From positions 1 through 64,000 of the forward strand of contig CALKGM010000006.1 in the NCBI GenBank assembly GCA_938084675.1: DNA of 64,000 bases, written 5' to 3'. Under the pieces are notes generated by a model, which worked only from the letters and a program-made list of their open reading frames with translations, made no database searches and had not been told where the DNA came from. The DNA comes from Candidatus Poseidoniaceae archaeon. GTDB taxonomy: Archaea > Thermoplasmatota > Poseidoniia > Poseidoniales > Poseidoniaceae. The position numbers and the translations under genes were made by a program. This document shows, piece by piece, positions 5,566 through 51,132 of this stretch. The stretch's first letter is position 1, and each line of letters opens with the position of its first letter.

Positions 5566-6552
5566 ATGTCGAACGATAGAGGATGGTTGTTGCTTACTAA
5601 TGACGATGGCATTGAGGCCGAAGGTTTCCGACTTTTGGTACAAGCCCTGCATCGAGAGGGTCACAATATCGTAGTTCTCGCTCCGAGTGAGAATCACTCA
5701 GCAGCAGGAATGCGCATCAATCTCATGAAACCCATGGGGCTTCGTGAACGCTCGGACCTCGTTCAAGCATGGGACCTCAATCCAGAAGACGCTCCAGTCC
5801 ATTTGTTTGAACTCGATGGAACTCCTTGCGACACTGTCATCGTTGCTATGGATGGTGGATTGGAACATCTGGTCCCTTCTCTCAAACCGCAACTCGTTGT
5901 ATCTGGTGTAAATCTTGGTCCAAACCTATCCCAAGACTCCTATCACAGCGGAACGATGGGGGCTGCTCGGGAAGCTGGCCTCTATGGAATGCCCGCTATC
6001 GCATCATCATTCACATCATTTGACCCAGAGGGTATGGCTCGTTCTATTGAGGCGACCGTCATACTGGTCGAGCGTGCCATGGAAGTTCTTCCTCGAGTTG
6101 CAGCAAATGCAGGACGTCCTCACGATGCAATGGACACGAATTACTTCACTTCATGGCCCACTACTGGAAATGATGAACCTTGGGCTCAAGATCCCAACAA
6201 GGCTTTGCTTACAGCGTTTAAGAACGGCGACCTGATGCTCAACCTGAATGTTCCACCAACTTGGGATGGTACATGGGCATGCACCCGATTGGGTGTCCGG
6301 TGGTATCGTAATGCCGTACGTTTTGAGGGTGCAGGAAAAGACGAAGTCGCGACCTTCACCATTGGCGCAGCATCCGTTGACCACAGTGAAGTTCTGTACG
6401 GTGATTGTGATGCAGTGGAAGAAGACAAAGCCAGTCTTTCATGCCTTGCAGTTTGGCCCCAAAGCCATCCGTTCGCTATGGATGAGGACCTGCTTGCAAG
6501 TGTATTGATGAATTCAGCAGATGGTTGGCCACATTGGCTCAGTCCAAATTAA
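5566..6552 (+). CDS. surE: SurE-type 5'/3'-nucleotidase
   Basis: Acid phosphatase of the SurE family, hydrolysing nucleoside 5'- and 3'-monophosphates (EC 3.1.3.5). The N-terminus LLLTNDDGIEAEGFRLLVQA carries the metal-binding Asp-Asp pair, and SENHSAAGMRI and SGVNLGPNLSQDSYHSGTMG give the other two family signatures, including the Asn and Ser ligands. At 328 residues it is longer than the usual 250 or so; the extra length is after the metal site (residues about 185-260) and looks like a surface extension. ATG at 5566 follows the EamA gene by 9 bases. The last 14 bases overlap the convergent trmY gene. Confidence 0.93.
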   Translation: MSNDRGWLLLTNDDGIEAEGFRLLVQALHREGHNIVVLAPSENHSAAGMRINLMKPMGLRERSDLVQAWDLNPEDAPVHLFELDGTPCDTVIVAMDGGLEHLVPSLKPQLVVSGVNLGPNLSQDSYHSGTMGAAREAGLYGMPAIASSFTSFDPEGMARSIEATVILVERAMEVLPRVAANAGRPHDAMDTNYFTSWPTTGNDEPWAQDPNKALLTAFKNGDLMLNLNVPPTWDGTWACTRLGVRWYRNAVRFEGAGKDEVATFTIGAASVDHSEVLYGDCDAVEEDKASLSCLAVWPQSHPFAMDEDLLASVLMNSADGWPHWLSPN

Positions 6553-7162
6553 GGGCAACGCCTTCGTCAAGAAGGAAATGAACTACTCCAATAGCCATAT
6601 GCCCTTGAAGCCACAGTTCTCCAAGAGAACGCTTCATCACTCCATCAAGGACCTCTTCGTCAAGCGGCTGGTCGTCACTGAGAACAAAACCGATGTCAAC
6701 TTCAGTATGCTTGCTCTGTTCAGGCAAGGATGCTTCCGGACTCCAAAGACGAGGAGCGTCTGCATCAAGGGCAACAACCGGAAGTTCACCCCATTGACTC
6801 AGAGTTGTGTTCAGGTTTCCTCCGCTATGTTCAATTCCCCGTGTGATGGGCTGCCAGTGTCCAATCGGTGGGAGCGGGGTGGCAATGACTTTACCAATTT
6901 GACCGGCTATAGAACGTTCCTCAGCATGGACACCGACGAGTTCACTACCATCGAACCGGATTCGCCTTGGAGGTCCTGGGCCTCCACCGAGATGGAGAAT
7001 GATTTCAGTATCCTTTCGCAAGCCATGACTGGTCAGTAATGCAGCCATGAGCGCCCTGACGAGGACGTCCATCCGGCCAGCGCCTCCTGCTAGATCATTT
7101 AGCGGCAACTTGCCCTTGGACATTGCACGGTGCCCAATGATGGCGAACCTTCGCATGTTCAT
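6539..7162 (-). CDS. trmY: tRNA pseudouridine(54)-N1-methyltransferase TrmY
   Basis: SPOUT-class methyltransferase (DUF358/COG1901) that uses S-adenosylmethionine to make N1-methylpseudouridine at position 54 of the tRNA T-loop, an archaeal replacement for ribothymidine. The 207-residue length is normal. Family motifs are visible near the N-terminus (RRFAIIGHRA, DLAGGAGRMDVLVRALMAAL) and in the middle (PRRIRFDGSEL, HAEERSIAGQIGK). The start codon at 7162 overlaps the stop of the upstream coaBC-like gene in an ATGA arrangement, so the pair is translationally coupled. Its 3' end overlaps surE on the other strand by 14 bases. Confidence 0.9.
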   Translation of the reverse strand: MNMRRFAIIGHRAMSKGKLPLNDLAGGAGRMDVLVRALMAALLTSHGLRKDTEIILHLGGGPGPPRRIRFDGSELVGVHAEERSIAGQIGKVIATPLPPIGHWQPITRGIEHSGGNLNTTLSQWGELPVVALDADAPRLWSPEASLPEQSKHTEVDIGFVLSDDQPLDEEVLDGVMKRSLGELWLQGHMAIGVVHFLLDEGVALNLD

Positions 7163-8361
7163 GCCTCCGGGCCACGCTCAACGAGCGTCATAATGGCGTC
7201 ATGGAGGTCTGATGAGGTTTGTAAAACAAAATGGGCACCGAGTGAATCCACAAGATATCCCCGTGGCTTGTTTGCATCTTCGAGGTCTTCCAAACGGTTT
7301 GCAATAACCGCTGTCATCCCTGAAGTCTCAATTTGAGCGATCGCCCGGTAAATCAGGTCTTTCTGCTTTATGCCGGATTCGAGTTTGAAACCAATACGTA
7401 CAGTTCCCAAACAATCTTCCCTGAGTTCTTGAATGTGTTTTGGACTTTCAACGAGGTCAAGAGAAAGGCTACCTTGCTGACTCGCAATTTTCCCTTGGGC
7501 CGGTGAATCTACGATATAATCCAATACCGCAGCAGCATGTATCCACGCATCGATGCCGTCGTTTGAGAGTGCCTTGCATTCTTTGAGCATTTCATCCGGT
7601 GTCGGGGTGCGGATAATGAGTGGAAGCCAGTCTGGGGACTGAGATGTCGTCAATCCAGCCACGCAGGTAACATCATGCCCGTGGCGGAAGAGATGGTCAG
7701 CAAGGGCCCAACCCGTTGCCCCCGAACTCATATTCTGCACGTGTCGTATATCATCAATAGGAGAGGATGTAGCGCCAAGGGTGATGACTACAGAACGGCG
7801 GTTGACTTTTCTCCGGTTCATGACATGGCCCAGATTTGCACATATTGAACGATAGGAAGGTGTTTTTTGCTTTCCTTCTTCATTTGGACCCCATTCCACA
7901 AAGACTCCTTTATTTCGAAGTTCAACAACGATATCCTCAGTTACTGGGTCTTTTGCAAGGTCTTCGTGCATACTTGGAATCATCATAATTGGGGTCCCCC
8001 GACTTCTTGCAACTGAAAGGGCCATCATTAACGGCCCGTGCTGCAATCCATGAAGGTGACTTGCCATCACATCTCGGGTGGCTGGTGCTACCAATACTGC
8101 GTCGACTTCGTCCAGTGCAGAGAGGTCACCGTCCCAGTCGGTAATGACATCTGCTTGGGACGCCCAACGGACTGCGAGTGGTGTGATGATTCTCTGTGCC
8201 GATGGTGTCATGATGACCGTAAGTTCTGCTCCATGGCGCCTTAATTCCCTTGCAAGTTTGACGGTTTCAACGGCTGCAATACCTCCGGTGACACCGAGAA
8301 CAATACGTGACCCCTGAAGGGAAGTTCCCGACATAATGACATCGGTATCACGGGTGGCCAT
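7159..8361 (-). CDS. coaBC: CoaBC-like phosphopantothenoylcysteine synthetase/decarboxylase, decarboxylase half degenerate
   Basis: A 400-residue protein with the two-domain layout of CoaBC: a flavoprotein (CoaC) domain (about 15-185) and a ligase (CoaB) domain (about 190-395). The CoaB half looks intact: VITLGATSSPIDDIRHVQNM, SSGATGWALADHL, AAAVLDY, the KI motif, IGFKLE and VIANR. The CoaC half keeps the FMN-binding GVTGGIAAVETVKLARELRR and VLVAPAT, but the usual catalytic His of the 'HI' motif before APAT is replaced (DLSALDEVDAVLVAPAT), PAMN has become PSMH, and the Cys-containing flap is not recognisable. So ligase activity (CTP-dependent addition of Cys to phosphopantothenate) is well supported and decarboxylation is doubtful. 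It drives trmY by an ATGA overlap. A second ATG 27 bases in is possible. Confidence 0.82.
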   Translation of the reverse strand: MATRDTDVIMSGTSLQGSRIVLGVTGGIAAVETVKLARELRRHGAELTVIMTPSAQRIITPLAVRWASQADVITDWDGDLSALDEVDAVLVAPATRDVMASHLHGLQHGPLMMALSVARSRGTPIMMIPSMHEDLAKDPVTEDIVVELRNKGVFVEWGPNEEGKQKTPSYRSICANLGHVMNRRKVNRRSVVITLGATSSPIDDIRHVQNMSSGATGWALADHLFRHGHDVTCVAGLTTSQSPDWLPLIIRTPTPDEMLKECKALSNDGIDAWIHAAAVLDYIVDSPAQGKIASQQGSLSLDLVESPKHIQELREDCLGTVRIGFKLESGIKQKDLIYRAIAQIETSGMTAVIANRLEDLEDANKPRGYLVDSLGAHFVLQTSSDLHDAIMTLVERGPEA

Positions 8362-8457
8362 AGCCCTCCCACTGAGCGGTGCATCATGACTTCTTCGCTC
8401 CTAACCATCTTCGTGATGGGCCACATGTTTCAAGAAGGTCCCACGTTAGGGGAACAC

Positions 8458-9156
8458 ATGAGCAACACCAGAGCGGATGATCTCGTTTTGGCGGGTTCGG
8501 CTCCTTCAGCATCAACTGCTCGGGACCCGATTGCTCACGTTCACCGTGGCACTTCGTTCATAGTTTTGGTTGATGCAGGAATTGTGGTCTACTTGCTCGC
8601 AACGATGCTACTTGCGACGAACCTTGTATCCCAATCCACATCAACAACCATAATCATCGCAGGTGCAATTGTAGCCCTTAGCATCTACTCGAGTTACCGC
8701 CAGCGTCGTCAGTGGGCATATTGGCCCGCAGTTGGACTCTTAGTCACGGCAAGTGTAATGTTCGGATTTCTGGCGTTCCTGAACCTTCTTTCAGTTCTCA
8801 TCGGCGGGAGTTTAAGCGGCCTGCTGTTCGTATTTCTCATGGGGTGGGCGGCCTTTGGCTCCGGACGAAGAGCTTTATTTCACTGGCATCCTGTTTACCG
8901 CTCAGGTTACAGTAGCGATTCCTTCAACCCTCTGGCTGACCTAGAGGAAGGAGAAATGCTTGCAGCATGCCCTTCCTGTCTTGCAGTTCTCGCCATTCGC
9001 CCACTAATGCTTGGGAATAACGACCGTTGTCCTCACTGTTCCAGTCTGCTCGTGAATGAGCGGCTATATGGGAAATATCAAATCGCAGACGATTTGAACC
9101 TGTCATCTGAACCCCAATTGAACGAACATGTCAATGAAATGCATGAAGAAGAGTGA
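8458..9156 (+). CDS. Membrane protein with C-terminal zinc ribbon, unknown function
   Basis: About 232 residues. A polar N-terminus of 30 residues is followed by four hydrophobic segments (about 32-57, 63-79, 88-112, 114-134) and a cytoplasmic-type tail that holds a zinc ribbon: CPSC at 171-174 and CPHC at 191-194. I do not recognise the family. Zinc-ribbon tails on small multi-pass proteins recur in this window. The ATG at 8458 follows a purine-rich AGGGGAA; an in-frame ATG at 8386 would put the gene within 25 bases of the divergent coaBC-like start and adds an unremarkable segment. The next gene begins within 90 bases on the same strand. Confidence 0.65.
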   Translation: MSNTRADDLVLAGSAPSASTARDPIAHVHRGTSFIVLVDAGIVVYLLATMLLATNLVSQSTSTTIIIAGAIVALSIYSSYRQRRQWAYWPAVGLLVTASVMFGFLAFLNLLSVLIGGSLSGLLFVFLMGWAAFGSGRRALFHWHPVYRSGYSSDSFNPLADLEEGEMLAACPSCLAVLAIRPLMLGNNDRCPHCSSLLVNERLYGKYQIADDLNLSSEPQLNEHVNEMHEEE

Positions 9157-49860: not shown

Positions 49861-51132
49861 TTATTGGACGGACATGAAACCTTTGCGGTCTACACCAAAA
49901 TCAATGGTTGCGTCGTATCCGATTTTGGATGTATTTCCGTCTTCATAGCGGGACGGGTCAAGGGAACTCCCTCTTTGATTTGAGAGAATTAATGTATCCT
50001 TGTCTGGCTGCCATCGGGTCATCATTGCCCATTCTACCCGGACTGGATCGGTGATGTCTATATCTTCATCAACTACGGTGACAATCTTCATGCTTTTATG
50101 ACCTGCAAAAGCAGCCTCTATCGCTTTCATTCCGTCATCTGCATTGACTTTCTTAATTTTCAACACGGCACCGAGCCAACCACATCCACCTTCGGTCATG
50201 TGTACATCAACACACTCTACGACCTTGTTGACTGCAGCCTTGATGGTTGGGGCTCGTGGAAGACCCATCAATGTCTTGTGTTCAGCTTCTCCTGGTATCA
50301 GTGCATGGAAAATAGGATTGTCTCTGTGACTTACCCCCTCAATTTCAATGACTGGTTCTTGACGAATATCGTCAACTGTTCCTGTAATGTCCACGTACGG
50401 CCCTTCATCGTCATCCTCGGTGGTAATTCTTCCCCACATGACATATTCGGCGTCAGAGGGGGCATGGATTCCGTTTGGAAGCGCAACTAATTTGAGGGGC
50501 TTGTTGTATAATTTTTCATGCAATGTAGCCGCAATTGTCAATTCGTCAATATTCTCGTTAAACGACATAGCAGCAGCAAGCAACACGACCGGGTCAGGTC
50601 CGTTGACAACAGCGATGCTTACTTCGCGTCCCTCTTTCCTCGCATCCATAACCATCGTCCGCAGATGACGTGGAACAAGCCGAACTACGAGGTGAGTTTT
50701 ATCTCTCAAAAATTGACGGTGAAACGATACATTTCGTATTCCGTTGTCTTCAGCAATGATAATACTGGCTGAGGAATAACGCCCACGGTCTGCTGGCCAG
50801 TGATGGGGGATGGGTAACTGTTCAAGGTTAACCTCGGCTTGCTGGTTTTCCATACAAGGGGCCTCCTCGGGTTGAATCATTTCAGGAGTGCCTGGGTTGG
50901 ACATGGCCCAACCTAGCGTGTCGATGTATTCTTCGGGCTCAATTCCAATGGCTTGGCATAATCGGTCCCGCGTCAACATATTTACGGCGGCTCTGTGTCC
51001 GGGGCATTCGGAAATATTGGTGAACACGGTCATGGCATGGCCACTGGCTTGGGAATGATTTAACATGCCGTGGCTAAGGCTTATTTCTTCGTCCTCGATT
51101 GAAGCAGCGCCGAGATGGTCTCTGAATGCCAT
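49861..51132 (-). CDS. UbiD-family decarboxylase, candidate anhydromevalonate phosphate decarboxylase
   Basis: About 423 residues of the prenyl-FMN-dependent UbiD family. Landmarks: MAFRDHLGAASIEDEEI at the start, HHWPADRGRYSSASIIIAED, the Arg of NVSFHRQFLRDKTHLVVRLV (prenyl-FMN/substrate site), VPRHLRTMVMDAR, and the acidic pair in DDDEGPYVDITGTVDDIR, where the second Glu of the E-R-E triad is Asp. SHRDNPIFHALIPGEAEHKT closes the site. This subtype resembles archaeal UbiD homologues that decarboxylate trans-anhydromevalonate 5-phosphate to isopentenyl phosphate. That job would feed the isopentenyl phosphate kinase at 57983. A TTG at 51258 is in frame, but ATG 51132 matches the family's N-terminus. 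No ubiX or aconitase-type dehydratase is in the window. Confidence 0.85.
   Translation of the reverse strand: MAFRDHLGAASIEDEEISLSHGMLNHSQASGHAMTVFTNISECPGHRAAVNMLTRDRLCQAIGIEPEEYIDTLGWAMSNPGTPEMIQPEEAPCMENQQAEVNLEQLPIPHHWPADRGRYSSASIIIAEDNGIRNVSFHRQFLRDKTHLVVRLVPRHLRTMVMDARKEGREVSIAVVNGPDPVVLLAAAMSFNENIDELTIAATLHEKLYNKPLKLVALPNGIHAPSDAEYVMWGRITTEDDDEGPYVDITGTVDDIRQEPVIEIEGVSHRDNPIFHALIPGEAEHKTLMGLPRAPTIKAAVNKVVECVDVHMTEGGCGWLGAVLKIKKVNADDGMKAIEAAFAGHKSMKIVTVVDEDIDITDPVRVEWAMMTRWQPDKDTLILSNQRGSSLDPSRYEDGNTSKIGYDATIDFGVDRKGFMSVQ

Follow-up and report, generated by a model that had tools for sequence, protein, structure and literature searches.

Can coenzyme A be made through a CoaBC protein whose CoaC half lacks the catalytic histidine? 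Coenzyme A synthesis requires the decarboxylation of phosphopantothenoylcysteine (PPC), and the question is raised by a coaBC gene in a stretch of 64,000 nucleotides (the window) from the draft genome (1.94 Mb, 91.6% complete) of a Candidatus Poseidoniaceae archaeon. In AtHAL3a, His90, Asn142 and Met145 are reported to be required for the FMN-dependent oxidation that forms the first step, and Cys175 to be needed for the later reduction; yeast was no longer rescued by Hal3 or Vhs3 once alanine replaced the equivalent histidine (PMC9604783). The bifunctional CoaBC of Archaea has been characterised in Methanocaldococcus jannaschii, and Thermococcus kodakarensis is described as depending on it for CoA (PMC6650551). 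The histidine presented as required for the chemistry in PMC9604783 is nevertheless missing from all 52 sampled members of Poseidoniales (Marine Group II), an order to which first place in abundance is given among the planktonic archaea of surface waters (PMC6461757). Either decarboxylation chemistry runs without this histidine, or the Poseidoniales pathway has a missing enzyme. Among the matches listed from the open-access full-text literature, judged by titles and the starts of abstracts, we found no report on the CoaBC of Poseidoniales, and the histidine-less form is apparently an unreported variant of a protein that is itself already known.

The coaBC gene and its surroundings

The gene, its two domains and its neighbours in the window are as follows.

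7159..8361 including stop, minus strand: coaBC gene, 400 aa, with an N-terminal CoaC-like flavoprotein domain and a C-terminal CoaB ligase (ORF, PF02441, PF04127, TIGR00521)
7852..8310, minus strand: CoaC-like domain, residues 18-170 (PF02441; domain profile matches solved relatives)
7285..7800, minus strand: CoaB ligase domain (PF04127), active-site residues kept (R206, N210, D281 and K291, each in 52/52 Poseidoniales)
6539..7162, minus strand: trmY-like gene on the strand of coaBC, whose end it overlaps by 4 bases (NF002560, 113.9 bits, below the cut-off of 183)
8386..9156, plus strand: divergent neighbour gene, 256 aa, with hydrophobic stretches and CxxC pairs as read from the sequence (similar ORF at other loci)

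By architecture and score the product of 7159..8361 is a CoaBC. The whole protein reaches 222.1 bits against TIGR00521, only just over the cut-off of 219.7, and the same chain carries PF02441 at residues 19-130 (63.9 bits) and PF04127 at residues 188-359 (122.4 bits). A profile of the CoaC domain matches the CoaBC of structure 6tgv, MrsD, EpiD, 6jls and AtHAL3a (1mvl), and the six nearest named CoaBC loci are 98 to 74% identical to the window protein.

A trmY-like neighbour is also found beside coaBC in both other genomes of the family that were inspected. An ORF similar to the divergent gene lies in or beside coaBC at six of the seven Poseidoniales loci inspected (L142-L146 and L148, not L147), and its product in the window had no Pfam family above cut-off. 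At the five inspected loci of the second family (L144-L148) a prolyl-tRNA synthetase gene adjoins coaBC, in the place where the window, L142 and L143 have trmY and surE.

Loss of the catalytic histidine

We aligned the window protein with 51 further Poseidoniales sequences, 27 from its own family and 24 from a second family, and with 48 outgroup sequences from other Thermoplasmatota orders, three of which belong to the same class as Poseidoniales. Of 60 genomes of the order that were searched, 57 had a match, and 52 of these supply the Poseidoniales sequences (L066 being a fragment); the outgroup represents 48 of the 84 genomes outside the order that had a match. The motifs of the CoaC half that are discussed below lie at these positions, all placed by the alignment.

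8116..8118, minus strand: Ala82 codon, in the column of the catalytic His
8074..8076, minus strand: Arg96 codon in PATR(N/D), where the others mostly have Ala (PATAN)
7966..7977, minus strand: PSMH at the PxMN motif, residues 129-132, followed by Leu135 at the position of the second Met
7858..7881, minus strand: flap segment EEGKQKTP, residues 161-168, without Cys and with Lys166 kept

The original prediction, made from the window alone, was that the catalytic His, the Asn of the PAMN motif and the flap Cys had all been lost. For the histidine this holds throughout the order: the column has His in none of the 52 Poseidoniales and in all 48 other Thermoplasmatota, and the Glu that precedes it (E81), present in 47 of 48 sequences outside, is mixed within. 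No single residue has replaced the histidine, since the column is occupied by Gln in 25, Ala in 14, Val and Gly in six each and Ile in one of the 52 sequences. A histidine shifted but still present, which was named in advance as one finding that would overturn the claim, is equally not seen. Residues 70-92 contain no His in 46 of the 52 sequences and one or two scattered ones in the other six, and outgroup sequences whose loop is just as short (e.g., L079) align with Poseidoniales across this segment free of gaps, which argues that the residue was not simply displaced. Other candidate columns were rejected: none of those rich in His (102, 104 and 108) is invariant, and the outgroup shares H132. 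The loss of the histidine is thus real and, within the sample, confined to Poseidoniales.

The other two predicted losses were seen correctly and proved to be undiagnostic. The Asn of PxMN is indeed absent, with H132 in 52/52 sequences; His also stands there in 42 of the 48 outgroup sequences and in the CoaBC of Mycobacterium smegmatis. Likewise, no Poseidoniales sequence has a Cys anywhere in flap columns 158-170 (0/52), and only two of the 48 outgroup sequences have one, the flap of the M. smegmatis protein having none. Because both PxMH and a flap lacking Cys occur widely beyond Poseidoniales, His alone among the three losses marks the lineage. A fourth residue does so as well: the second Met of PxMNxxM (residue 135), present in 48/48 outgroup sequences, is Leu in 51 Poseidoniales and Ile in one, and its loss also marks the lineage within the sample. 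Column 94 (window 8080-8082) differs too, having Cys in 28 of the 48 outgroup CoaBC (PCTAN) and in none of the 52 Poseidoniales (Ala in 46, Thr in six).

It had also been predicted that FMN-binding residues stay, and several residues of the flavin motifs are in fact kept, with G26, I28 and A29 each in all 51 Poseidoniales rows that have a residue there and P93 and M131 in 52/52. Lys166 of the flap is found in 52/52 Poseidoniales and 44/48 outgroup sequences.

New invariant residues and slow change in the CoaC half

Calling the CoaC half "ruined" does not describe what the alignment contains. Six residues have become fixed in Poseidoniales that are absent or rare in the outgroup: R96 (52/52 against 0/48, with Ala in 38 of the latter), D138 (52/52 against 0/48), W76 and M113 (each in 51/51 rows with a residue, against 0/48), T141 (52/52 against 3/48) and S130 (52/52 against 7/48). 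R96 lies in the PATAN motif and S130 in PxMN, D138 and T141 follow just after PxMN, and W76 stands six residues before the lost histidine.

The half also changes more slowly than its ligase partner. Mean identity is 0.690 for CoaC and 0.668 for CoaB within family 1, 0.594 and 0.481 within family 2, 0.507 and 0.408 between the two families, and 0.493 and 0.363 among the outgroup. In 13 of 13 hand-picked pairs the dN of CoaC is lower than that of CoaB, and where dS stays below 0.6 (three pairs) dN/dS for CoaC is about 0.03-0.07, dS being saturated in most others. Given this slower change and the invariant residues gained in active-site motifs, the CoaC domain is, as far as such comparisons of sequences can tell, not plainly decaying.

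The alteration of the site is nonetheless broad. In twelve CoaC columns 47 or more of the 48 outgroup sequences agree on the residue; six of these columns are kept or nearly kept in Poseidoniales (R42, G44, A45, P93, P129 and M131), and six vary or switch (G78, E81, H82, K101, D108 and M135, by their outgroup residues), among which K101 and D108 are found in 48/48 outgroup sequences and are variable inside Poseidoniales. These six columns suggest a change of the site that goes beyond one swap, and a dead domain would show the same.

In trees of the CoaC and CoaB domains, each rooted on one arbitrary outgroup tip, Poseidoniales form one clade with support 1.0, on a stem branch of 0.93 substitutions per site for CoaC and 1.02 for CoaB. 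One clade and a long stem in both halves make a single change on the Poseidoniales stem the simplest course of events. Family 2 is non-monophyletic in both trees. The sister of the order in the CoaC tree is a group of five sequences drawn from other parts of the phylum (parent support 0.87), and in the CoaB tree it is one single sequence (support 0.22); in neither is it the other order of class Poseidoniia.

The CoaB half and the rest of the pathway

The ligase half had been predicted to stay entire, and at the four active-site residues that were checked it is intact. R206, N210, D281 and K291 are the alignment equivalents of R207, N211, D281 and a loop Lys in M. smegmatis CoaBC, on the assumption that the chain numbering differs by one, and the arginine aligned with R206 is described as critical in that enzyme for the cysteine-using step (PMC7794376). 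A ligase using cysteamine in place of cysteine was considered and found no support, R206 being kept.

Three further parts of the pathway were sought in 21 genomes, with PPS found in 21/21, PanB in 19/21 and the archaeal DPCK family in 17/21, the genome of the window being included in each count. In this genome a single protein of 339 aa (L151:3963-4982, contig C14) joins PPAT to the archaeal GTP-dependent DPCK family (DUF359), a kind of fusion already published for group II/III euryarchaea (PMC6650551). Since PPS, PanB and the DPCK family are present, phosphopantetheine is presumably made de novo in Poseidoniales. Given the enzymes of the pathway and the retained CoaB residues, R206 included, PPC is presumably made there too and so must be decarboxylated.

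The gene upstream of PPS was considered as a pantoate kinase and rejected, as it matches quinolinate phosphoribosyltransferase. It ends 9 bases before PPS (L150:3408-5108, contig C26 of the same genome), and a second-family genome has, by eye, a similar-looking pair (L152). Such a pairing could possibly be a link of NAD and CoA genes.

Search for a second decarboxylase

We know of no archaeal replacement at the PPC decarboxylation step. It had been proposed to look for a second, stand-alone CoaC elsewhere in the genome. None was found in the draft genome of the window, where a PF02441 search at E<=10 returned the CoaBC and one UbiX only. The latter reaches 205.2 bits against TIGR00421, to which the window CoaBC scores 12.9 bits, the cut-off being 108.9. 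UbiD is the usual partner of UbiX, and as UbiD was found in 21 of 21 genomes searched, UbiX is disfavoured as a substitute decarboxylase. One UbiD-family match lies in the window itself (50287-50871, minus strand) and a second on contig C5 of the same genome; two such matches are present in 16 of the 21 genomes.

Across the order, 189 of 193 genomes searched had a PF02441 match, and a hand count of the number of matches alone gave two in about 151 of the 193, one in 32, three in six and none in four. Three of the six genomes with three matches were inspected: in G041 coaBC is split over two contigs, and in G160 and G179 two matches fall in the score range of UbiX; G062, G093 and G130 lie outside this inspected set. 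Beside coaBC, PPS and PPAT-DPCK no decarboxylase was recognised among ORFs judged mostly by eye from the opening stretch of each sequence, a few being profiled.

What the CoaC half may do

The step is needed, a single candidate domain remains for it, and that domain has lost an essential residue; a decarboxylase with a rebuilt active site is the simplest account. We therefore lean, tentatively and at rather less than an even chance, towards a CoaC half that is a rewired, His-independent flavin decarboxylase. The CoaB half would then join 4'-phosphopantothenate to cysteine as usual, and the CoaC half would most likely still bind FMN at the subunit interface and most likely still decarboxylate PPC, its presumed substrate, the role that the lost His plays elsewhere in the first, oxidising step being taken by other groups. 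The first candidates for such catalytic groups would be Arg96, invariant and next to the flavin motif, together with the retained His132 and Lys166. AlphaFold prediction for the window protein and six relatives gave a mean pLDDT of 46.7, too low to place Arg96 or to search folds.

Several observations count against this rewired decarboxylase. His90 is required in AtHAL3a and the change to Ala kills rescue in yeast, and the Met listed beside it as required is also lost (PMC9604783). Half of the twelve strict columns are altered, and the His column has settled on no one residue. Moreover, the FMN site is described as lying between subunits (PMC7794376), so that conservation there could serve assembly alone.

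These same observations lend substance to a rival that we regard as a real possibility, short of probable, in which the CoaC half is catalytically dead and retained as a scaffold that the ligase needs, PPC in Poseidoniales being decarboxylated by a non-homologous enzyme that has escaped recognition. The uniform loss of His and Met, the mixture of residues in the His column and the variation of K101 and D108 all speak for it, and a flavin site that is also a subunit interface may be conserved without catalysis. That a CoaC part can be needed by its ligase is known from M. smegmatis, whose CoaB alone forms no dimer and is inactive; however, the CoaB of Escherichia coli dimerises and works without its CoaC part, and the contact residues between CoaB and CoaC are reported in the same account as not conserved outside the mycobacterial group (PMC7794376). 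Archaeal CoA synthesis has other non-homologous replacements (PMC6650551), yet no candidate decarboxylase was recognised in a narrow search, covering PF02441 and the ORFs beside coaBC, PPS and PPAT-DPCK, mostly by eye, and scaffolding alone would not lead one to expect new invariant residues in flavin and substrate motifs. That the CoaC half of Poseidoniales is a pseudo-enzyme and an undiscovered non-homologous PPC decarboxylase completes CoA synthesis may be so, and we consider it on the doubtful side.

An improbable course is that the CoaC domain has taken up a new function, such as binding a flavin or a CoA-type ligand that regulates the ligase or carrying out another reaction, with decarboxylation done elsewhere or unneeded. 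New invariant residues in pocket motifs throughout the order would fit, as would the long CoaC stem, but the CoaB stem is equally long; the cysteine-linked R206 is kept in every sequence, and a bypass of decarboxylation would need two novelties. Very unlikely is a second, His-bearing subunit of CoaC fold that completes the site. It has a precedent in the yeast PPCDC, where the catalytic residues are split between subunits and none of Hal3, Vhs3 and Cab3 works alone (PMC9604783); the sole candidate seen here is UbiX, which is clear by profile and accompanied by UbiD in all genomes searched, and the own genome, a draft at the completeness given above, offers no other PF02441 match. An artefact of assembly, annotation or alignment is hardly conceivable, for although the genomes used are drafts assembled from metagenomes, all 52 sequences, each from a different genome and together spanning two families, agree and the segment aligns without gaps to the short-loop outgroup.

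Comparison with known CoaC-fold proteins

Against the canonical CoaC, the Poseidoniales protein lacks the catalytic His, the Asn of PxMN, the second Met and the flap Cys, and only the His and Met losses are specific to the order. The absence of these two is why it fails as a canonical CoaC decarboxylase, and the textbook mechanism does not fit whether the domain is rewired or a scaffold.

UbiX, the flavin prenyltransferase, belongs to the same PF02441 superfamily and is encoded in this genome separately from CoaBC. The yeast proteins Hal3, Vhs3 and Cab3 share the CoaC fold; there a paralogue makes up for the loss, whereas the PF02441 search detected no such paralogue in the genome of the window. 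A closer likeness is that to M. smegmatis CoaBC (PDB 6TGV), a full-length homologue with a PAMH motif and a Cys-less flap segment, which differs in keeping the His (QHV), the Ala of PATA and the Met of PAMHxxM. All five solved relatives compared (6tgv CoaBC; 7cfu; 1p3y and 5h75 mersacidin decarboxylase; 6jls) have a His in the segment and Ala at the position of Arg96.

The likeness to archaeal CoaBC, judged through the 48 Thermoplasmatota sequences, extends to domain order, ligase residues, PxMH and the Cys-less flap. It is set against these same relatives that the Poseidoniales stand apart, lacking the His, the preceding Glu and the second Met of PxMNxxM, and carrying an Arg in PATAN together with the other new invariant residues.
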